Source: Protonemura montana
Taxonomy: Eukaryota; Arthropoda; Insecta; Plecoptera; Nemouridae
Assembly (NCBI GenBank): GCA_947568835.1
Contig: OX387606.1
Location: forward strand, 2,728,001 to 2,792,000
DNA length: 64,000 nucleotides
Reading direction: 5' to 3'
In this document: positions 1 through 28,300 of the stretch, one piece after another
Position numbering within the stretch: position 1 is the stretch's first letter
Layout: every line of letters begins with the position of its first letter
Notes under the pieces: generated by a model
The model's input: only the letters and a program-made list of their open reading frames with translations
Told to the model about the DNA's origin: nothing
The model's database searches: none
Program-made: the position numbers and the translations under genes

Positions 1-300
1 AACAGTATCTCTCGTACCTCACAGCCATCGTCGGTATTGGTAACTTCACACACCCAAGCATACAAAGAAAAATGAGTAACTCTCATCCCGGACTGGCATC
101 AATGGCTTGATTAGCAACTAGTTACGATTCAGAACCAAAATAAAGTGAAAATAAAATCTCTCTTACCTAACTGCCATCATTGGCTTGATAATAATGGTTA
201 CGATACAAAACCAAATGTAGGTTGGAAAAGGAAATCTCTCCTTCCTCAACGCCATCATTAGCTTGGTAACTATGGTCATGAAATATAACTAATTTGCACT
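1..300. repeat. Diverged tandem repeat, about 80-bp unit, about four copies
   Basis: Four diverged copies follow one another. Each carries a core like ATCTCTCTTACC, then CTGCCATCATTGGCTTG, then a GGTTACGAT stretch, starting near 5, 80, 158 and 232. The array lies on the 3' side of the minus-strand DUF4806 gene. Repeats just inside the end of an element are typical of EnSpm/CACTA transposons, so this may be the subterminal region of the element that carries the next two genes. That role is inferred. No terminal inverted repeat is visible, and the element may extend beyond base 1. Confidence 0.5.
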
Positions 301-637
301 TGATCATTAATACTATCTTTGTCTACCACTGGGCAGATAATTGACGATCACAATAAAGATTTTTACAGAATATATGATCATTGGAAACTGTATCTAAGAA
401 ATATACTGCAAGAACTGCATTTATAAATACAACACTCGTAAAAGACAAAAATTTACAGGACACTTAAACTTGAGCTTAACTTAAATATGAGTGATGAAAT
501 TGTGTTGGCTGGTTGTGAAAGTTCAGTTTAATCCGTAATTTGGGAGTTTTCAGGCCTGAAAATGCATCACAAATAAATTACTGTTTTTGATAACTTATAA
601 CAACACCAAGCCATACATTATATACAAATATATTTAC

Positions 638-2233
638 TTACAAAATATTAGTAGCACGCAAAAGCCGCTCCTTGGATCTAACCAACCAACATTGGATGGC
701 CCCCTCTATCTCCTTCTCGCTGGCAGTTTCGTTGAGTTTTAGTACAGCTTCTGAAATTGGAGTAATTTATAAGCGGTTTTATTATTAATCGGGCCGATCA
801 TTCTGATGAGAATCCAAATGTAATAATTGAGCAAAGACCAATGCTTTTACATTATACATACGTTTGATGACTTTAGCAAGAGTCAGCTTGCTAAAAGAAT
901 TTTTCTTTTTCTTTCCTAGCCAACTGTAACTGACAGCTACATCTGATGTAACCACACGCTCCATAATGCGAGCAACGCTGTTCTTGACAGAACATCCCCC
1001 CACTCGAGAAAGCTCGTTTATCTAAAAAAAAAAATTATTTATTACAATTAATTTGGTATGTTGTTATTGAGTTTTTTTGCTTTGAAACAGTACTACACCA
1101 CCAGTTCATTCAGATTTTTTACATACCAGGCCCAAAAAAATATCAATTTTCTCCAGTTTCTTTTCCAGGATGTCTAAACTATTCAGAGACTTGACAGGTA
1201 AAAGCAGCTCAACAAGTAGGTTTGTCCTAGCTGGTGCCTCAGTGTTGGCAGACTTGCTGCTAGCAGCCAATAGCAGATCAACGCCTGCTCGGAGCTGCTG
1301 AAGTTCGACCTTCTGCCGGGTCAGCAGACGAATTACTTCCGATTCAAAGCCTGCAAAAAAGGCATTAATAATAGTTCACAAAAAAAGAGATAGTAAACTT
1401 AAGCTGAGAAAAGGCTAATTTATTCAGCTTACATTCACGCCTGCGAGAAGGTGGAGAGTGAGGTGGCGGCCGGCTAGGTGTATCTCGATCACGTGTCGAT
1501 GGAACAGTTCTGTCTTTACCAGACTGCGAATACGCTATTCTCCGGGGCTGCGACATAGAGATCTGTTTCCGAGGCTGCGTCGAGGGAGAATGTTCCTGCG
1601 GCTGTGCTACGGGGGAGTCTTGAGGCAGTGACATAGGGGAGAGCGGTGAAAAAGGGGGGAGATCTTGCAGCTGTGCTGTCAGCGATGATGCACCTTGCAT
1701 TGTGGCTTTCTTATTTTTTTTCTTAGGTGGTGCTGGAAATTCATCATCGGAACTCATTTCACTGGAGTCACTGAAGTCTGTCGTCAGACGGGAATAGGTA
1801 GTTCCTTTTTCTGCTTTCAGCTGTGCAGTTGCCAAGTCAGCTAAAAAATGAGAGCAAAAATCACTTGTTTGTCGGCACCCTATGAATGTAACAAATTGCC
1901 ATGCACATTTAAATTTAAATGTGGACATCAACCATGGCCAAATCAACAAAATGCATATGAAATTCACAAGTGTGAATCAACAAAAATGCCATGCAACGCG
2001 ATACAACAAAATAAATCAGTTTACGTACCATACCTCCCCATAAGTTTAGCGGAATACATTGGCCAGTTCTTCTTGGGGAGGTCTTCATTCCTAATGGCTG
2101 CCAAAACTTTGGCAGTATCCACTGCTTTTGGCGGCCAGTAACATTGCTTGGTTTTCATAACAAACCATGACTGTGGTACCGCATCAACAAAAAGATTACC
2201 ATTGTCGGTTATCGACACCACGCAGAAGGCCAT
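638..2233 (-). CDS. DUF4806-domain protein, five coding exons, intact (369 aa)
   Basis: Five exons on the minus strand join with matching phases and GT-AG borders: 2029-2233, 1433-1840, 1127-1350, 862-1021 and 638-750, ending in TAA. The N-terminal exon shows the W...CYWPP...W...YGT pattern common at the start of DUF4806 proteins. Exon 2 is an acidic, Pro/Ser-rich, low-complexity linker with a PKKKNKK nuclear-localisation-like motif. Exons 3-5 hold a leucine-rich helix and the DUF4806 core, seen as GGCSVKNSVARIM, YSWLGKKKKNSFSKL and a final AIQCWLVRSKERLL. I saw no stops or frameshifts. The start ATG lies ten bases after a splice acceptor (exon edge 2243), so a non-coding exon must precede it. 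The transposase lies directly upstream on the same strand, which suggests this is the second gene of a transposon rather than a host gene. The biochemical function of DUF4806 is not established. A DNA-binding, TnpA-like role is inference. Confidence 0.85.
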
Positions 2234-2469
2234 TGTAGCAAACCTGAAACAAATATTGTGAGTTAATAAAAAGTAGTGGATCTTGGTTTTTTTTGCAAGA
2301 TGCCCAGGCTACCAAGGAGAATGTACTTGGTGCTTCTCTGCTTCACCGTCAGAGCGTGAGAGAAGGGCAAGAGAAACCTAGTCTAGGGGCACCATAATTG
2401 TGTACACTATTACTGATCATAGCTTGAATTAGCTATCCATGTGGCTGTGACATAGGGGATGCTTTTACC

Positions 2470-4613
2470 TTAGCAATGCAGAAGAGGAAATACAACATCA
2501 GTGTTGCCTAAAGTAAACCGAACTAATTTGGCGCAAATCTTACTGATTGGCCAGAATTTTCGATTCGACAGCGTGTGCACTTTGTAAATGCCTAGCTCGG
2601 ACGAGTGGATTGGCTTCTCGAAAAGATTTTCTCTGGCTTCAAACAACCTGCCAATTACAAACATTTGACCTTTTCTCGAACTCACTATGTTCTCGACAAT
2701 AATAATGTCGTCCTCATCGCTAAGAACACAATTATTAGCCTGGTCAATGCGAAGAGAGAAGTTTTTGAAGTTGGCTCGTTTGTATTGGGGATCTCCAAAA
2801 TCCTTCAGCAGAGGCCCATTGACATGTACAAACGAGAAAATTATTTTGCTTTCTGATTGACTGGCAGTAAATACGGATGATTGGTTCTTAATTTCTTCAT
2901 AACGTCGGTGGAGCTGTTGCAGTGGCTTATCACACTTTCGGACAAGTTTCTTCAGTTCCTGCATGAAATTCTCGAAAGCAAATGCACTGAAGTTATCGAG
3001 TGCACCCAGTTTTGCAGCATCCTGCGCAATGTGGAGCAAACCATGAACATTGTGCGAAACTAACGCTTTCCCGTAAAGCTTTGCAAAGCGCTCAACAAAA
3101 AAATGCAGCAGTTCGTCAGCGTACACGTTGTGAGTGGCGCACATATCTGGTGATGCCAAAATTCTCACGGCGACATGGAGTGTCAGAAAATGGAGGAATA
3201 ATTTTTTGGGCAATACTTGCAGCAACACAACCGGCCCACTGTAAAAGAGAAATTGGCGGAGCTCCGTAGCCTTCCACCGATCAATCGATTTTAAATCCCG
3301 AGGCTTTCTGGCAAATTCGACCGGAACACAGGTTTTTAACAGTAAGAGTTTCGCAGTAACTCGATTGACCTGCCCCATGGACAGCTTCGTTGGCAATTTT
3401 CCACGCATCCAAAGAAGAATAAGTTTTTTTGTCACTCCCAGGCAGATGAGGTGCATGTAGTCCAGTGGAAATTGGGACACATGTCCAAACCCTGGTATGG
3501 TTTCCAGTGGAGAAAGACCAACATGATGTTCTTCTTGGCGGTGCTGTTGGAATGACGCGTCCGTTCTCAGTTCGATATTTTTACTGTATGGAAAGCACAC
3601 TCTATTTTCGATGTAGTTTCCACGTTGGGTGCACTTGGTACAGCTGTAAAAACCCGAGTGTCCCTTGGACCCTTGGTACACGTCACAAAAGATTTAGCCG
3701 GGGCATCACATATAAACGATGTGGTCTTGAATTGCCTCACTTTGCCCTGGATTGAGATGCCATTGGATGTTAGGTTTACAGCCTCTTCTACAAATTCTCT
3801 CAAGAAATCATGTGGAGAATGTGGCTTTACATCCCCATGGTAGCACCCAATGAGAAATGGTTTGTTGGAAATTTCTCGCACCAGTCCTAAAATTGGCCAC
3901 AGTTGGCTGCCCGAAGCTTTGGCAATTGGAAGACCATCTATTCCCACAACGAGTTTGATGGTTGTGGGTATTTGTCTTTGAGCAATACTAATTTTGCCTA
4001 GCAAATATTCAATGCCATTTTTTATCCCGTGGTGCCAGTATTTACCGGGATAAACGTTTTGAACGCCGGTGGAACGGGGAGTCCCAAGTAAAATGCGTGC
4101 ATCTTTTGGAAGGTTGACATGGCATGGGTGTGAGTGTAGCACTGTTAGTAAATTGTTAACAACACTATGATGCACATTATCTTTCACTGCCCAGGAAGCC
4201 AGTAGGTCTTGGAACGACTTGTCAACTGAATCGAATCGCACATCTGGATCGCAAAACTCACTAGGCTCATACTGGTCGTTCAAAGGTCTTTCGATGGTCG
4301 AGGCTTGCTCATCAAAACTTGACTCTTCTGAAATATCAGAGCGTTGGTCTGATATCAAACTATCTACATCGGCGGCATAAATCGGGCTCTGGACAGGAGA
4401 AATCTCATGACTGGAAAAAAGCTGAGGGTCGTCACTGTCAATTTCTTCAGATGAAGATGCCTGATTAATATATTGAAGTGCTTGGCTCGTTTCCTGCGCT
4501 ACAAGCCTGTCTCTCTGTCGGTGGGATTTTAATTTTGTGCCACTCATGGTTGTCTTTGAAAGAAGAGCTGGAAGTTCAAGTGTTTCTGTAGAAACATTCT
4601 CAGTAAGAGGCAT
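2470..4613 (-). pseudogene. Tnp2/EnSpm(CACTA)-like transposase, one frameshift
   Basis: Two long minus-strand frames overlap near 3681-3700 and together cover one transposase. The first (ATG at 4613) has an acidic serine-rich N-terminus and then conserved blocks: the VVGIDGLPI segment with its Asp, WPILG, YHGDVKPHSPHDFL and FICDAPAKSFV. The second continues with GSKGHSGFYSCTKCTQRG (a CxxC pair) and LDYMHLICLGVTKKLILLW, the signature D-x-x-H-x-x-x-LG block of animal Tnp2-type (Transposase_21-related) proteins. The block order is that of the family. The reading frame shifts by one base between the FVTC and YQGSKG segments, so the copy is either inactive or contains a sequencing error. The ATG follows a splice acceptor (exon edge 4615). 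The stop TAA at 2470-2472 is followed at once by a splice-donor-like GGTAAAA. The product would cut and move the element by DDE-type chemistry in the nucleus. Confidence 0.85.
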
Positions 4614-4721
4614 CTCTAGCAATAAACCCAGAGGTAACTACAAAGTATTGCATATTAGCCGGCTAGGCCAAGGATGACTAAGCCACTACCCTAACAGAAG
4701 CATACAATATTGTAAACTCAC

Positions 4722-5150
4722 CAATAAATAAATTGTAAGCCAGGAGCTCAGACCCTTGCTCTACAATACTGCTGTTAATATTAGGTTTTCCTCTCCACAA
4801 GAAAAATTAAGCTGAGCTGAAAACAGAAAAGTGAATAGATTTACAGGCTAGGTGTCATTTATTAAAGTAGCTTACGAACCAAGTAACTAGTAAGGTCCAT
4901 GAGGCAAGGCAAGGCAAGATAACCTTACAAAGACGCTGTAAAAGTAATAGTATTATGATATCAAAATATATAATGATTAAGAATGCATCTTACCGTTGTA
5001 TCCTCAGATTCTGTTGCTTCTTGATGCAAAAATCCACAAGGCAAAATCCACATAAAGCCCGAAATCAGAATTGTACTCAGAGATCGTAGCACTGCGAGTC
5101 GAGCAATCACTGAACAGGCAAGATGGCTTCTATGTTTACATCACGTGACA
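4722..5150 (-). promoter_or_regulatory. Leader exons and probable promoter of the transposase/DUF4806 unit
   Basis: Two non-coding exons can be proposed upstream of the transposase. One ends with a donor (ACG|GTAAGA) at exon edge 4994. The other spans 4722-4816 between CTGTTTTCAG and TTATTG|GTGAGT. The third exon begins at 4615 and carries the ATG. The presumed start region, about 5100-5160, includes a TCACGTGAC palindrome (E-box type) and several CpGs. No TATA box is obvious. Splice motifs are read by eye, and the start site is inferred. Confidence 0.4.
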
Positions 5151-5159
5151 ATATTGCGC

Positions 5160-6470
5160 TCAGTGATCGGCTTTGTTCGGTCGCTTCCGACTCCCCGTAT
5201 TTTTATTTTTTGATTCGGTTTCACATTTAATTGTATTTAGATGAATTAATTAATTCGACAACCGATATGAAATCGAATCGATGATATTATATCTACGCAA
5301 TCGATCCAATATTAACCACACCACCGAGCGTGGGAAAGATACGTCATAATGTGATCTAATCGTGTGGTCTGACGTCACACGAGATGAAAATAATATGTAA
5401 ATGCTCTCAAATCACCGATATTTTGTTCTTAACGATCGAATGACACTTCGTGGCGCGATTCTGAAAGACGATCGAGATACAGCGTAAATTGTACGATGGG
5501 GTAGGTTGGTTTGATTCAGCTAATCGATTCAATCAACACTTTTAATAGTGTTGAAACGAGTCCCAGGCTGCGATGACAAGGGTACACCCACTTATGCTTG
5601 TTCAACCATAAAACATACACTCCTTTGCTCGTATAATCAATCAAATCAGGTAAACCAGAACATCAACACAACCGCGAAGACCCTGGCAAGCTTATCAGGA
5701 CACTAACTTGCCAGATTTTAACCTTTGAGAGAGATAAACGACCAGAGTAGAAGGCTAAGTGTAGCTAAAAACTACGCTTTGACTCTTACAAGAGACTCTC
5801 ACGCAAAGTCAAAGGACCATAACGACTGTTTGATATAACATTCAGATACCTATTGATCTCGTCTACATTTTATATAGACGTTTCTTTCAGCATAGCTAGA
5901 AAACTGAGCGAGTAAATGACAAAAAACTTGGATCACCCAAAATTGTTTTTTTTGCAAAGTAAGAGATTCAGCCATGGTTTCATATTGTGAGCTCGAGAAA
6001 TTTAACAAATTTGAAACGATCTTGAAACTTATTTTGTCGGAGGTTTCGTGAGTTGAAATTAACATAGATTACTCATTTTTCATCGCTGAATCGACTGATC
6101 AACACGGCATATCTATGCGTTCCAAATTGACGTAATAGTTTGTGAAATATTAGACAAAGTATGTTTGAAAAACTTACGAAGATAATATTGTGGTCCATTG
6201 CCGAATGTCCCCGGGATATCCCCACAATGACCAATTTTAACGTGTTTTCTGGCATGTCCCCGGGATATCCTCACAATGACCAAATAAAATGGGCTAGGGA
6301 TGATCCATTTCAGCATGTACCCGGGACATCCCCACAACGTACCATTTTCATAGGATGTTTTTTGAACATTGCGTACGTCCTGTGGATATCCCAGGGATAT
6401 CATGTGCTGTGTGGGTATAGATATAAGAGATGCATTTGGTGATTCTATCTCATTCGATTCTGATGTTCTA
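5160..6470. other. Non-coding stretch with short tandem repeats
   Basis: No coding region is supported here. At about 6200-6345 there are three diverged copies, 50-60 bp apart, of a motif like GTCCCCGGGATATCCCCACA followed by ATGACCAA. This may be the flank or 5' part of the Polinton that follows. No Polinton terminal repeat could be recognised. Confidence 0.4.
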
Positions 6471-6513
6471 AGCGTTGTACTACATTTCCGACGTCGTCGT
6501 AACTAGATTTAAA

Positions 6514-7011
6514 ATGTGTAAAAGCAGTAACTATCATGATCGATACATTGATTATTTCCAAAATCAATGTGGATCGGGGATGAATATATATCACGGTAGC
6601 AAATTTCAGCGTGGTTGTGGACTAGCGTCATTTTTTAAAAATATGTGGCGATTAGCAGTACCGATATTTAAAAGTGGAGCTCGATCTCTTGCTCAAGAAG
6701 GACTCATGACTGGAGTAAATTTTGCAAATGATTTAATGGAAAGAAAAAATGTGAAACAATCGTTTGAAAATAGATTGAAGGAAGCTGGTTCGAATCTTAA
6801 ACGAAAAGCCGAAGATAAACTTACTCTTATGAAGGGCTCGGGTCTTAAACGATTGAAAAGCTGCCAATCACTTCAGTTGGTGCCGGGCAACCGTGGTAGG
6901 AAGGCTGTTGTTGTTAAAAAGAAGAAGAGACAATCTTCGAGTCATCAACGCAAGAAAACCACCAAGAAGATCAAGTTATCGAGAAGAGTGCGAGATATTT
7001 TTGAAAAGTGA
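6514..7011 (+). CDS. Polinton small basic core/minor virion protein
   Basis: The first ATG lies near 6514. The product is about 165 residues. It has a hydrophobic or amphipathic stretch near the N-terminal third (GCGLASFFKNMWRLAVPIFK) and a strongly basic C-terminal half rich in Lys/Arg. This layout resembles adenovirus-like minor virion or core proteins (pX/pVI type) and the equivalent small protein next to Polinton capsid genes. A membrane-active or DNA-condensing role is inferred. It abuts the capsid gene with almost no gap. Treated as part of a fossil element. Confidence 0.6.
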   Translation: MCKSSNYHDRYIDYFQNQCGSGMNIYHGSKFQRGCGLASFFKNMWRLAVPIFKSGARSLAQEGLMTGVNFANDLMERKNVKQSFENRLKEAGSNLKRKAEDKLTLMKGSGLKRLKSCQSLQLVPGNRGRKAVVVKKKKRQSSSHQRKKTTKKIKLSRRVRDIFEK

Positions 7012-7013
7012 AA

Positions 7014-8315
7014 ATGTCTGTTATACATAGCAATTCGATGGAGGCTATGAAATCTGAGCTCGATCTTTTCACAACACCTTTAACACAAGCAGCCATCGAA
7101 TATGGATACAAAGCAGCATATAAACCTATTGTGTCTTTGGAAGGAAATTCACAATTCGAGTTTGTTGTAAATAATAATGGCAATGAGTTCATTGATCTTG
7201 CATACACAGAGCTCCTTTTAACAGCAAAAATTACCAAAGCAGATGGTACTAATTTAATTGCTGATGATAAAGTTGTGACCGGACCGGTCAATAACTGGAT
7301 GCATAGTTTGTTTTCGCAAGTGGAGGTCTCATTGAATGGTAAACTGATATCATCGCCTTCACACACTTATGGTTATCGAGCATATATTGAAACTTTACTG
7401 AACTTTGGTTCATCAGCTAAAAAAACGCATTTAACTTCCAGACTGTGGTATAAAGATACTGCAGGTAAATTCAACGATTTCAAGGATAATGATGGACTTG
7501 TTAAGAGGTCAAGCTTCATAAAAGGTAGTAAAACTGTGGATCTAATGTCTAGTATCCATCATGAGCTGTTTGCATCTGATAAGCTGCTTATTAACGGTGT
7601 TGAAATGCGATTAAAATTTCATTTAAATAAAGACGCATTTCATTTAATGTCAGAAGATACTTCGGTAAAGACGCACATTCTTGATGCGACGTTGTTTGTG
7701 AGGAAAGTCAGAATCAAACCTGAGCTGCATTTGGGATACTCGCGAGCACTCGAACGATCGAATCTGAAGTATCCATTGAATCGAGTAGAAATTAAAAATA
7801 TTACAATCCCTGCGGGGGTCATATCTAGAACTATTGATAATTTATATTTAGGGACGTTACCTAAACGAGTTGCGATTGGATTTGTTTCAAATGCTGCGTT
7901 TAATGGAGATTTTGGGAAAAATCCTTTTTTCTTTGAAAATCATGATTTGAATTTTCTACAATTGTATGTAGATTCACAACAAATTCCTACCACAGCTCTT
8001 CAGCCTGATTTCAAGAATAATCTATTCATTCCTGCATATAGGACATTGTTTGAAGGGACAGGCATTAATCATCAAGACGTTGGAAATGATATATCTCGCG
8101 AGGAATACGCTCATGGATATTTTCTTACTGTTTTTGATCTTACTGCTGATCAGTCGGCGAGCTCAAATCATTGGTCTATACAGCGAAACGGGTCATTTCG
8201 AATTGAAGTTCGATTCAACGCTACCTTAACAGGTCCTGTAGATATGATTTTATATTCCGAAAATAATAGTTTAATGGAAATAACTAGAGATAGAAATGTA
8301 ATCACAGATTTTTAA
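7014..8315 (+). CDS. Polinton major capsid-like protein (F54H12.2-like family)
   Basis: The open frame has about 433 codons, starting at the ATG at 7014. It is beta-rich with few cysteines. Segments such as NNWMHSLFSQVEVSLNGKLI are typical of the invertebrate 'F54H12.2-like' proteins found in Polintons and adintoviruses. Those proteins are considered jelly-roll capsid proteins. The position between a small basic protein and an adenain-like protease fits the virion block. Which capsid role (hexon-like or penton-like) it plays cannot be fixed by eye. Hexon-like is more likely from its length. Confidence 0.65.
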   Translation: MSVIHSNSMEAMKSELDLFTTPLTQAAIEYGYKAAYKPIVSLEGNSQFEFVVNNNGNEFIDLAYTELLLTAKITKADGTNLIADDKVVTGPVNNWMHSLFSQVEVSLNGKLISSPSHTYGYRAYIETLLNFGSSAKKTHLTSRLWYKDTAGKFNDFKDNDGLVKRSSFIKGSKTVDLMSSIHHELFASDKLLINGVEMRLKFHLNKDAFHLMSEDTSVKTHILDATLFVRKVRIKPELHLGYSRALERSNLKYPLNRVEIKNITIPAGVISRTIDNLYLGTLPKRVAIGFVSNAAFNGDFGKNPFFFENHDLNFLQLYVDSQQIPTTALQPDFKNNLFIPAYRTLFEGTGINHQDVGNDISREEYAHGYFLTVFDLTADQSASSNHWSIQRNGSFRIEVRFNATLTGPVDMILYSENNSLMEITRDRNVITDF

Positions 8316-8470
8316 TATAAAAAATAAGATGATATTTAGAAAACTAGAATTATTTTTCACCCCCTCCACTACTTTACTAAGTTATTGATGACGGTGACTG
8401 CTATAATAACGATTTGGGATAGAAATAAAATCACTTTGAGTCAACGCATTGCAGAAGACGATTCAAAGTC

Positions 8471-9007
8471 ATGAATTCACTACATCTTGAAGAAGTTATG
8501 CTATGTGACAAGTTCACAAGTCCGTTATTTCGTGGAGTATTCGCTGCAAACAATCTGCCTCGAATTGTGCAACATCCGTGTGTACTAATAGCGAACACAG
8601 ATCCTAGTAACAAACCTGGCTCGCATTGGGTTGCTTTTCACATCGACGAATTCGGACGAGGTGAATTTTTTGATTCTTATGGAATCCCACCAATTGTAAA
8701 AATGCATCACGAATTTTTGAGTCGTCAGTGTACTACGTGGACATACAACGAAAAACAGCTTCAAAGTCCAACATCTGATGTCTGTGGTGAATGGGTAGCA
8801 TTATTTCTCGCGCATCGATCTCGAGATCTTAGCATGCAAGAATTCATGTATTTCTTTAATAATAGAACTTGTGATGAAAATGATCAACTCGCACGTTCAT
8901 TGTTTCAAGAAAAATTCAAAACTTGTTTTACTCCTATCCGAAAATGTATGAACAATCAAACTTGTTGTAGTCGTGAATGTAATCCACTTTATATGATGAG
9001 ATTTTAA
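8471..9007 (+). CDS. Polinton adenain-type cysteine protease (PRO)
   Basis: The 178-residue product shows the adenain arrangement in order: His in GSHWVAFHID, acidic residue in FFDSYG, Gln in KQLQSP and nucleophile Cys in SDVCGEW. Its length is within the range of the family. Such proteases cleave virion proteins during particle maturation. It lies about 155 bases downstream of the capsid gene on the same strand. The identification is good. Whether the element as a whole works is doubtful, because most other genes are absent. Confidence 0.85.
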   Translation: MNSLHLEEVMLCDKFTSPLFRGVFAANNLPRIVQHPCVLIANTDPSNKPGSHWVAFHIDEFGRGEFFDSYGIPPIVKMHHEFLSRQCTTWTYNEKQLQSPTSDVCGEWVALFLAHRSRDLSMQEFMYFFNNRTCDENDQLARSLFQEKFKTCFTPIRKCMNNQTCCSRECNPLYMMRF

Positions 9008-24719: not shown

Positions 24720-26000
24720 CCAAGAACTCACACGGGGCGCACCGAGGCAGTCAGTCAAACAAGTCATAAATAAATAAGTGTGAAGTCAGAGAATTGTATT
24801 CTTTGCTCACAATTCAGACGACAGGAATGTTATATTTATAAAGTTGAGTGTATGCACCGTTAAGCAGCAAGCTTTTTTTTTTTTACCTGCAGCCAGTTTT
24901 CAGTCACCTATATTTATATTTCCACTCGTGACATGATGAATTATTTAATTCTTGTCAGGTGTCAGAATCAGACAATAAGGCTATCAAGTTGTCTTGACAT
25001 CTCACGTGATATTAAAACAGGTAGCAATCGACTGACACTGGTTAGAAACTTTCAATAAAAAAGCATTAGTTGGTAAATTTTACAATTTATATTACCTATG
25101 TAATTCACAGTCTTGTTCATGGTTATTGCAATTAACATATTGTCAATGCGTTTTAAGAGCTTTCATCTGATAGGGACAGTTTTTATGTTGACATAATAAA
25201 AAGAAACGGATGATGACCTTATATTTGGTTTGGTCGGTGTGTACGTGTGTGTGTGTGTTTGTGACAGGGTTGTGAGGATGGGAGGGGGGTGGGGGGGGGG
25301 TATGATTCTTTGAAGAATGCTTTCATAAGAATTTCGACTTTAATGCCTAAACATTCTCTTGTAAGGCCCATCGGAATTGAGTAATTTTTTTTAAGAAATG
25401 GTTTTGTTGGAATTTTATTATTAGGAACACTTCAAAAATTCAGAAATTGATTTCAAAAATTGATGTCCTAACGGGAAAACAGGCAGCTCAATTGGTTAGA
25501 GCAACACCCGCGACAGGTGGATATTGGGGTTTGAGTCTTCGTTTGGGCATAAAAATAGTAGAGTTTCTCATAGTAAATTAAGCCGCGCATTGCAAGCGTT
25601 TGCAATTTAATACACATATGATAGGTATTTGTTATGCATTTTTCTTTATTTTAAGCACACTTCATTCGTTTATGATAAGCCTGGTTATGATCTGATGGGG
25701 CCTATCAGGTGGCCAGATGCAGGGGCGACGTTAGGATCCGCTACACGCACTCGAAGACGCCACCCGCAGGGCAAACTTGGCACCTCCACGACATATATTT
25801 ATTGCAAGGTAAGTCAGTTGAAATTGCAATAAGTTCAGCTTTGAACTTTCAAAATATAAAGTTTTAGGGGGGGGGGGCGAAAGCGGCTTTGCACTGGTAA
25901 AATCTCACAAGTTAATACAATTTTGAAAACAATGATTTGTCATACATTTATTAAGCACAAAGATTCCAGTTGTGTTAGTTTTATCGCGATCAGACAAAAA
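24720..26000. other. Non-coding stretch between satellites
   Basis: Apart from the SINE there is a GT-rich microsatellite and G-rich tract at 25230-25305 and a poly-G tract at 25866-25877. Both differ in length between the units. A donor-like CAAG|GTAAGTC at 25807 follows an open frame at 25629-25832, but no domain is recognised. Unit 2 equivalent 41880-43165. Confidence 0.4.
25400..25620 (+). mobile_element. tRNA-derived SINE, plus strand (unit 1)
   Basis: A box CAGCTCAATTGGTTAGAGCA and B box GGGGTTTGAGTCTTCG lie 25 bases apart. The body follows and ends with GCGCATTGCAAGCGTTTGCAA. The B box departs from the tRNA consensus. Duplicate at 42561-42781. The members at 18481 and 56170 are in reverse orientation. 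Confidence 0.65.
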
Positions 26001-26009
26001 GTGTCAACG

Positions 26010-27560
26010 AAACCGAGTCACTCAGACGTGCTGTCAGTAGATCCACCTAACATCGGAGTGGGGAGACCCATGAATCGCTCAGACGCACTGTCAGTAGATC
26101 CTCCTAACAGCGGAGTGGGGAGACCCATGAATCGCTCAGACGCGCTGTCGGTAGATCCTCATAACATCGGAGTGGGGAGACCCATGAATCGCTCAGACGC
26201 GCTGTCGGTAGATCCTCCTAACAGCGGAGTGGGGAGACCCATGAATCGCTCAGACGCGCTGTCAGTAGATCCTCCTAACAGCGGAGTGGGGATACCCATG
26301 AATTGCTCAGACGCGCTGTCAGTAGATCCTCCTAACAGCGGAGTGAGGAGACCCATGAATCGCTCAGACGCGCTGTCAGTAGATCCTCCTAACAGCGGAG
26401 TGGGGAGACGCATGAATCGCTCAGACGCGATGTCAGTAGATTCTCCTAACAGCGGAGTGGGGAGACCCATGAATCGCTCAGACGCGCTGTCGGTAGATCC
26501 TCCTAACATTGGAGTGGGGAGACCCATGAATCGCTCAGACGCGCTGTCGGTAGATCCTCCTAACAGCGGAGTGGGGAGACCCATGAATCGCTCAGACGCG
26601 CTGTCAGTAGATCCTCCTAACAGCGGAGTGGGGAGGCCCATGAATCGCTCAGACGCGATGTCAGTAGATTCTCCTAACAGCGGAGTGGGGAGACCCATGA
26701 ATCGCTCAGACGCGCTGTCAGTAGATCCAACTTACAGAGGAGTGGGGAGACCCATGAATCGCTCAGACGCGCTGTCAGTAGATCCATCTAACAGCGGAGT
26801 GGGGAGACCCATGAATCGCTCAGACGCGCTGTCGGTAGATCCTCCTAACAGCGGAGTGGGGAGACCCATGAATCGCTCAGACGCGCTGTCAGTAGATCCA
26901 CCTAACAGCGGAGTGGGGAGACCCATGAATCGCTCAGATGTGCTGTCAGTAGATCCTCCTAACAGCGGAGTGGGGAGACCCATGAATCGCTCAGACGCGC
27001 TGTCAGTAGATCCTTCTAACAACGGAGTGGGGAGACCCATGAATCGCTCAGACGCGCTGTAAGTAGATTCTCCTAACAGCGGAGTGGAGAGACCCATGAA
27101 TTGCTCAGACGCGCTGTCAGTAGATCCTCCTAACAGCGGAGTGGGGAGACCCATGAATCGCTCAGACGCGCTGTCAGTAGATCCTCCTAACAGCGGAGTG
27201 GGGAGACCCATGAATCGCTCAGACGCGCTGTCAGTAGATCCTCCTAACAGCGGAGTGGGGAGACCCATGAATCGCTCAGACGCGCTGTCAGTAGATCCAC
27301 CTAACAGCGGAGTGGGGAGACCCATGAATCGCTCAGACGCGTTGTCAGTAGATCCTCCTAACAGTGGAGTGGGGAGACCCATGAATCGCTCAGACGCGCT
27401 GTCAGTAGATCCACCTAACAGCGGAGTGGGGAGACCCATGAATCGCTCAGACGCGTTGTCAGTAGATCCTCCTAACAGTGGAGTGGGGAGACCCATGAAT
27501 CGCTCAGACGCGCTGTCAGTAGATCCACCTAACAGCGCAGTGGGAAGACCCATGATTCGA
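26010..27560. repeat. 57-bp minisatellite, open on both strands, about 27 units (unit 1)
   Basis: The unit is 57 bp (19 codons). The plus strand reads MNRSDALSVDPPNSGVGRP and the minus strand MGLPTPLLGGSTDSASERF, both without stops. In unit 1 the plus frame is closed by one TAA at about 27060. The minus frame runs on into unique sequence to about 28027. Units differ mainly at synonymous-looking positions (CCTCCT/CCACCT, TCAGTA/TCGGTA). Confidence 0.95.
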
Positions 27561-28300
27561 CTTAACTTGTTATTTGTATAAAAACAGCCAATCAGAATAT
27601 GGTTTTTGTTTGTTAATGGTCTGTTAAATTCCATCAAGGACCGAGATTTTTTAAACATGAAGAATATAGAAGCATACGGAAAAGTCTTACTTACTTTGGA
27701 TAGAAAAAAATCCAGCATAAATTTTGTCTCAATAATACAATCCTTCCAGTTCTTTTGAAAACTCATTAAAAAATGCTGACCACAGACAAGTTTTGTTTGA
27801 ATTCCAGTTTTGAACCGAAGAAAACTTTCTGTGTTTTGTCTTGAATTCTGACTTTGTGAACGACAGTAGCGTGTGTCCAGTTTTCTCTGTATTTTAGTGG
27901 GACGCTCTTTGCATTTAGATTGCTTATTTTGTAACGTGAATATGTGTAGGATGAAAATACAATGGTAAGCTGTTGTTTCTGGTGACAAAAGTATAAAAGA
28001 ATCTCTCTTGTGCTTCGCGCTTGGCAAAATATTTTCCAGAAAGGCATAAAAGGTAATATTTTAACTGAATTTGCTAAGTTTTTCATAGAGCATATCTGTG
28101 GATGCAAAATACATTTTAAGCGCGAACCAACACAATATACATTTTACATTCATGTTTTTGACGATATACTATGTATGGTAAAGAAGAAATAAGAAGTTCA
28201 ATTTAATGCATTATTTAATTATACATTATTTCAAAATATTTCAATTCAATGCAGTAACTGATGGAAGTCAGGTCTTACTAAAAAAATATATAAAACAAAA
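27560..28300. other. Flank of the 57-bp minisatellite
   Basis: The minus strand is open to 28027 in the frame of the minisatellite (basic, Lys/Ser/Gln-rich, unrecognised), and another frame is open at 27766-28107. No splice or start signals support either. Unit 2 equivalent 44722-45460. Confidence 0.35.

Follow-up and report, generated by a model that had tools for sequence, protein, structure and literature searches.

The element described here is best compared with transposons that make two proteins. In maize, the large tnpD open reading frame (ORF) lies within the first intron of tnpA (PMC2613891), and in animals (Schistosoma, Tribolium, Aedes) the TRC elements of the CACTA superfamily have CCC termini and 2-bp target duplications; for SmTRC1, alternatively spliced mRNAs are described, one of which has the end of the transposase and another ORF arranged in tandem (PMC1636069). 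The DUF4806 domain is described from zebrafish as a subtype of the BEN DNA-binding domain (PMC11075544, citing Pan 2023), and has been counted as expanded in Hydra, where it is tabulated beside transposase domains, and as enriched in a beetle. No link between DUF4806 and transposons was found among the matches listed for the open literature, the field searched being exclusive of subscription literature and Repbase. For the current report we analysed a window of 64,000 nt from the stonefly Protonemura montana (GCA_947568835.1, contig OX387606.1, positions 2,728,001-2,792,000, forward strand), in which a transposase gene is followed by a DUF4806 gene. Our interpretation, which we consider likely, is that the two belong to an animal CACTA-like (TRC-like) transposon, organized as one transcription unit for two proteins, of which the second is TnpA-like.

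The element, its copies and its two genes

A previous interpretation of the window from its letters alone (the sequence-only reading) had recognized a two-gene transposon at positions 638-5150. The two genes are indeed there, but the element is longer than was proposed. Comparison of copies within the same 258-Mb genome, the one animal genome covered, sets its borders at window position 6415 and 822 bp before the window, as follows (window positions unless stated otherwise):

C4:2727179-2734415, minus strand: whole transposon, 7,237 bp, from multi-copy boundaries and termini
1..6415, minus strand: part of the transposon within the window; the remaining 822 bp (3' end) precede window base 1
6404..6415, minus strand: terminal inverted repeat (TIR) at the gene-5' end, CCCACACAGCAC; its partner CCCATACAGCAC starts from L001 8179, before the window
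6416..6417, no strand: target-site duplication TA; the same TA is at L001 8177-8178

The termini are inverted and of the form CCC...GGG (CCCACACAGCAC...GCTGTATGGG) in each of the six copies having both ends, and all six are flanked by a 2-bp target duplication (TA in four, AA and CA in the others); one end is missing from copy L004. The length is 7,237 bp in the window copy and 7,229 bp where an 8-bp insertion is absent. Six copies retain both genes and differ among themselves at just three substituted columns, so that activity is recent. Probes for the 5' and the 3' end find 8 places each in the genome, so that the family is small. A further copy, L008, is a deletion derivative that has lost the transposase core and DUF4806 exon 1.

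The genes and candidate exons are arranged on the minus strand in the following order, with exon borders marked by a slash:

4994..5140, minus strand: candidate leader exon 1; donor ACG/GTAAGA after 4994, start at 5140 arbitrary
4722..4816, minus strand: candidate leader exon 2, 95 nt, no ATG; donor TTG/GTGAGT after 4722
2470..4613, minus strand: transposase ORF; ATG 2 nt past the acceptor, encoding 711 aa in copies with an open frame
3669..3676 (approximate), minus strand: 8-bp insertion shifting the transposase frame, only in the window copy and L003
2244..2469, minus strand: candidate intron of the two-ORF mRNA form, 226 nt, from the transposase stop to DUF4806 exon 1
2029..2243, minus strand: DUF4806 exon 1, coding from 2233, with a conserved P-x-S-W...C-x-W-P domain
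1433..1840, minus strand: DUF4806 exon 2, spliced open frame
1127..1350, minus strand: DUF4806 exon 3, in which the PF16064 match begins
862..1021, minus strand: DUF4806 exon 4, which holds the core of the PF16064 match
638..750, minus strand: DUF4806 exon 5 and stop, spliced open frame

The 719-aa transposase frame is open in four copies (L004-L007) and broken in the window copy (L002) and in L003, the copy at C4:2.81 Mb; the frameshift that the sequence-only reading had seen in the window copy is accounted for by the 8-bp insertion near 3676. L002 and L003 lie ~75 kb apart and share this insertion, and since their flanks differ and each has its own target duplication, it would seem that a copy no longer encoding a working transposase was moved in trans. 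By eye, the insertion in both copies resembles a tandem duplication, of the kind that slippage or the excision of an element with 8-bp target duplications would leave.

Three motifs of the transposase (GIDGLPI, ICDAPA and AFENFM) contain the residues D, D and E, which are probably catalytic. Among the window transposase and its nearer relatives (clade A, below) the first D is present in 13 of 13 and the second in 14 of 14 loci that include the region, and the E at 16 of 17 loci, the exception being L018 with G. At E values up to 1, neither the open 711-aa frame of L005 nor L010, L012 or the pieces of the window transposase matched the Transposase_21 profile (PF02992), which was matched only in a second clade (clade B), at 5 of 10 loci. 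DUF4218, a domain linked to plant CACTA elements, scored 20.9 bits in L012, below its cut-off of 27. A search of viral contigs turned up no transposase relative. Because the Transposase_21 profile is not matched, we call the element TRC-like and do not file it as a proven member of TRC or CACTA.

The DUF4806 gene has five coding exons, separated by GT-AG introns, for an open frame of 369 aa that starts at an ATG (2231-2233) ten bases past the acceptor before 2243. The gene had been described as intact, and its frame is open in all six copies that have both genes, among which residue 314 is either L or P. The spliced window protein scores 27.8 bits against PF16064 (cut-off 25) and the joined exons of a second family (fam2) 32.4 bits; single exons from L012 and L029 score 20.5 and 21.5 bits, both below the cut-off, and neither the L014 piece nor a single fam2 exon gave a Pfam match. 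A direct search of the genome with PF16064 found no match; the domain is split over several exons. With a profile made from the window family and fam2, DUF4806 was detected downstream of the transposase in these two families, in L029 (1.4e-6) and in L012 (0.015), and a wider profile gave a weak detection in L014/L015 (0.0064).

Pairing and probable nesting of the two genes

Searches of the genome, which give lower bounds, found 27 transposase loci, all of which were taken in 10-kb pieces, together with two extra loci (L008, L009) without a transposase match. In a tree of the transposases, L020-L028 and L030 group as clade B with support of 0.992; the others, including the window family, are referred to as clade A, with L019 and L029 placed by their DNA identity to L010/L011 and L016, respectively, rather than by the tree. 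A profile of the exon-1 domain, made from the window, L010, L012 and L017 sequences, finds this domain downstream and on the same strand at 16 of the 17 clade-A loci (L002-L007, L010-L012, L014-L019 and L029), and at 0 of the 10 clade-B loci, for which a few kb were fetched per locus. The sequence-only reading had asked whether DUF4806 genes would be found beside such transposases elsewhere in the genome, and they are. Since L014 and L015 have 9.9 kb of identical sequence and are not independent, the pairing was counted by family as well; it was present in six of seven families, between whose transposases identity falls as low as 32%. Viewed from the second gene, the exon-1 domain has matches at 18 places in the genome (matches to exon 2 being dropped), 16 of which are downstream of a clade-A transposase.

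These counts bear on whether the DUF4806 gene might be a captured host gene that the transposon carries as a passenger. Other reports treat DUF4806 genes as ordinary ones in their counts, and the copy in L009 has no transposase match; yet the same position and strand are kept in six of seven families across such divergent transposases, and the frame has stayed open in every two-gene copy, so that capture of a passenger is a very improbable explanation.

Two side observations belong to these loci. The DUF4806 copy in L009 (4700-5560; C13:3560 kb) has ~97% DNA identity to the window family; a different ORF with a donor-like site at its end precedes it, perhaps as the product of an exon fusion with another gene. 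L014 and L015 are ~31 kb apart on C16 and 100% identical over the 9.9 kb, either by a fresh segmental duplication or as an assembly artefact.

The details of the splice sites indicate how the two genes might be expressed. The sequence-only reading had named a transposase stop at 2470-2472, a donor-like GGTAAAA and exon edges at 2243, 4994, 4816 and 4615, all of which are found in those places: the stop runs directly into G/GTAAAA (donor after 2469), and the donor after 4722, absent from that reading, closes the 95-nt leader exon. Between the transposase stop and the exon-1 acceptor the window family has a gap of 226 nt, L012 one of 256 nt and fam2 one of 370 nt, and the exon-1 ATG follows the acceptor by 10 nt in the window family (fam1) and by 0 nt in fam2. 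Gaps of this size could hold a compact promoter, and the two genes might then be transcribed separately, with a start and leader for the DUF4806 gene between or near them. We regard such separate promoters as unlikely, since in L016 and L029 the exon-1 acceptor (CATCTTTCAG/AAAC) is inside the transposase ORF, in another frame and, in L016, 11 nt before the stop, and since three loci have a first coding exon of matching phase upstream of the transposase. At these loci (L012, L014 and L016) exon 1 lacks an initial start codon, its first base being the remainder of a split codon, and the last donor (score >=5.5) before the transposase start ends an ATG-frame exon that leaves two bases; the joined sequences read MKPAQTPL-R-NYAIVALVEE (L012), MTATAGIK-R-AKRFAVVEF (L014) and MFGAVI-K-NFALVEF (L016). 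L017, whose transposase match begins at residue 357, and L018 were left out of this comparison. As such a frame occurs within 40 nt of 122 of 806 donors (15.1%; score >=5.5, in 16 of 29 loci), the probability that three of three exons would match by chance is ~0.003. The transposase ATG of L016 is 6 nt past the donor; if left unspliced, the RNA would have the transposase frame preceded by a short one. For the window family, a phase-2 ATG frame was sought at the donors after 4994 and 4722 and was not found.

Taken together with the exon-1 ATG that the window family and fam2 have of their own, the overlapping acceptors and the phase-matched upstream exons make it appear that intron 1 of the DUF4806 gene contains the transposase ORF. 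They strengthen the proposal of the sequence-only reading that one pre-mRNA could yield both proteins, as does the precedent of alternative splicing in SmTRC1. From these genomic comparisons, a nested two-gene transposon that is probably alternatively spliced is well supported. Splicing of the leader past the transposase ORF would produce an mRNA encoding the DUF4806 protein, and where the leader-to-exon-1 splice is not made the mRNA would encode the transposase, either alone or followed by the DUF4806 ORF.

Terminal repeats and the possible role of the DUF4806 protein

Repeats at window positions 1-300 had been put forward for binding tests of the DUF4806 protein, but they are found by eye on the 3' side only and were rejected as TnpA-type sites; the repeats that do occur at both ends have the sequence RYATCCC and are concentrated in the last ~260 bp:

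6156..6415, no strand: subterminal repeat region with 6 RYATCCC sites; a further 6 are in the last 260 bp at the opposite end, before the window

L005 has 15 such sites, 6 in its first 260 bp, 6 in its last 260 bp and 3 in the ~6.7 kb between, a count made on the same ends from which the motif was derived and covering the ends of one family. The best 8-mer shared between the ends occurs 6 times there, versus 1-4 times for 18 pairs of interior blocks and 1-2 times for 20 shuffles. As for the one-sided repeats, several diverged copies of a ~27-bp unit (GCCATCATTGGCTTGGTAAC-like) are seen in window 1-300 and L001 8560-9000, the 3' noncoding part of the element.

We infer that the DUF4806 protein most likely binds the subterminal RYATCCC repeats, and it would thereby help the transposase to assemble on the ends, or regulate the ends, as TnpA does for Spm. 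The description of DUF4806 as a BEN subtype that binds DNA is in favour of this interpretation, and by analogy with Spm an end-binding, TnpA-like role is plausible. The protein might instead be a regulator or chromatin factor of the element, acting against silencing or in self-repression, and not a helper that binds the ends in transposition. A domain of unknown function in exon 1 leaves room for such a role, which we consider possible but doubtful, since the terminal repeats are bilateral and since Spm requires both of its proteins (PMC2613891); TnpA of Spm does both, so the two roles are not exclusive of each other.

Our preference for a single transcription unit with a TnpA-like second protein has to be weighed against a number of points. 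The splice junctions were read from genomic DNA alone and scored with a crude matrix of our own making, and the acceptors before 4615 and 2243 fell below its listing threshold and were read by eye. The rule that selects the start-codon exons was worded after they had been noticed, and one of the three is from L014, which is degraded and lacks a clear ATG for the transposase. The four sequences of the exon-1 profile were picked by eye and hence match it by construction, L013 is without an exon-1 match on its own strand, and two exon-1 matches, at C13:3560319 (in L009, beside another ORF) and C12:12343202 (outside the fetched pieces), are without a known transposase of the group. The monophyly of clade A is weakly supported, with internal supports of 0.143-0.701 near clade B, and clade B is not established as the sister of a single clade A. 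In a sequence search of the PDB with a two-sequence profile no solved BEN structure was matched, the one match being at chance level (E 2.1), and a fold model of exon 1 was of low confidence (pLDDT 49.7) and was not used.

The same arrangement might extend well beyond the window family. We would give an even chance to the more general proposition that an entire clade of animal CACTA-like transposons has DUF4806 proteins with the P-x-SW...C-x-WPP domain as its TnpA-type second proteins, produced from mRNAs in which the transposase ORF is spliced out. Were this the case, many of the DUF4806 genes of other animals, such as the expanded set of Hydra, would be transposon genes or their descendants. 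DUF4806, a domain of unknown function with expanded counts in Hydra and in a beetle, could in part be explained in this way, and counts of this kind might be a reflection of transposons. The layout also predicts exact junctions, which open the two-protein mechanism of Spm to testing in an animal element that has intact and nearly identical copies.

Insertion site and relation to known elements

The window copy is inserted in a 243-aa ORF of a Polinton-like element, which spans L001 743-8216 and window 6418-9007, has long open frames and is taken for a Polinton:

6418..9007, plus strand: interrupted Polinton-like host sequence, with a 433-aa ORF (7014-8315) and a 178-aa ORF (8471-9007)

The 433-aa ORF, putatively that of the capsid, has no Pfam match, and the 178-aa ORF is protease-like (Peptidase_C5, 0.002, below the cut-off). 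Across the insertion, in L001, are an integrase ORF (rve, 3.1e-13; Chromo, 1.7e-6) and an ATPase ORF (Pox_A32, 4.6e-5, among other matches); a 1187-aa ORF of the same element resembles a B-type polymerase, by eye only. Elsewhere in the window, positions 25932-27766 contain a long array of short, coding-like tandem repeats with the unit SDALSVDPPNSGVGRPMNR, and among the clade-B loci the transposase ORF of L023 (2648-5689) has an N-terminal run of many DAVHLG/DAVHEG repeats.

Of the known elements, Spongebob_HMa (EnSpm-4N1_HM) of Hydra has the TIR CCCAGCCAACATTGAC and a 2-bp target duplication (PMC4298943); the 5' end of fam2, set where two copies diverge, likewise begins with CCC (CCCAGACAACAC). 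The Spongebob_HMa transposase is broken, and a second protein is not described in the available part of that report (PMC4298943). With maize En/Spm, Tam1 and the soybean Tgmt* elements (PMC2613891) the element shares bilateral subterminal repeats and, as it appears, the placement of the transposase ORF in the first intron of the gene for the second protein; unlike En/Spm, it has CCC rather than CACTA ends, a 2-bp target duplication and a second protein from a different family (DUF4806). The CCC terminal core and 2-bp duplication are those of SmTRC1 and the other TRC elements, from which it is set apart by a transposase that lacks the Transposase_21 match. The second proteins of SmTRC1 are described as not detectably conserved (PMC1636069), whereas in the present element conservation of the second protein, with its DUF4806, extends across families. 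The closest known systems are thus the TRC/CACTA elements, with SmTRC1 as the example, and what is new in the stonefly element is a conserved second protein that bears DUF4806.

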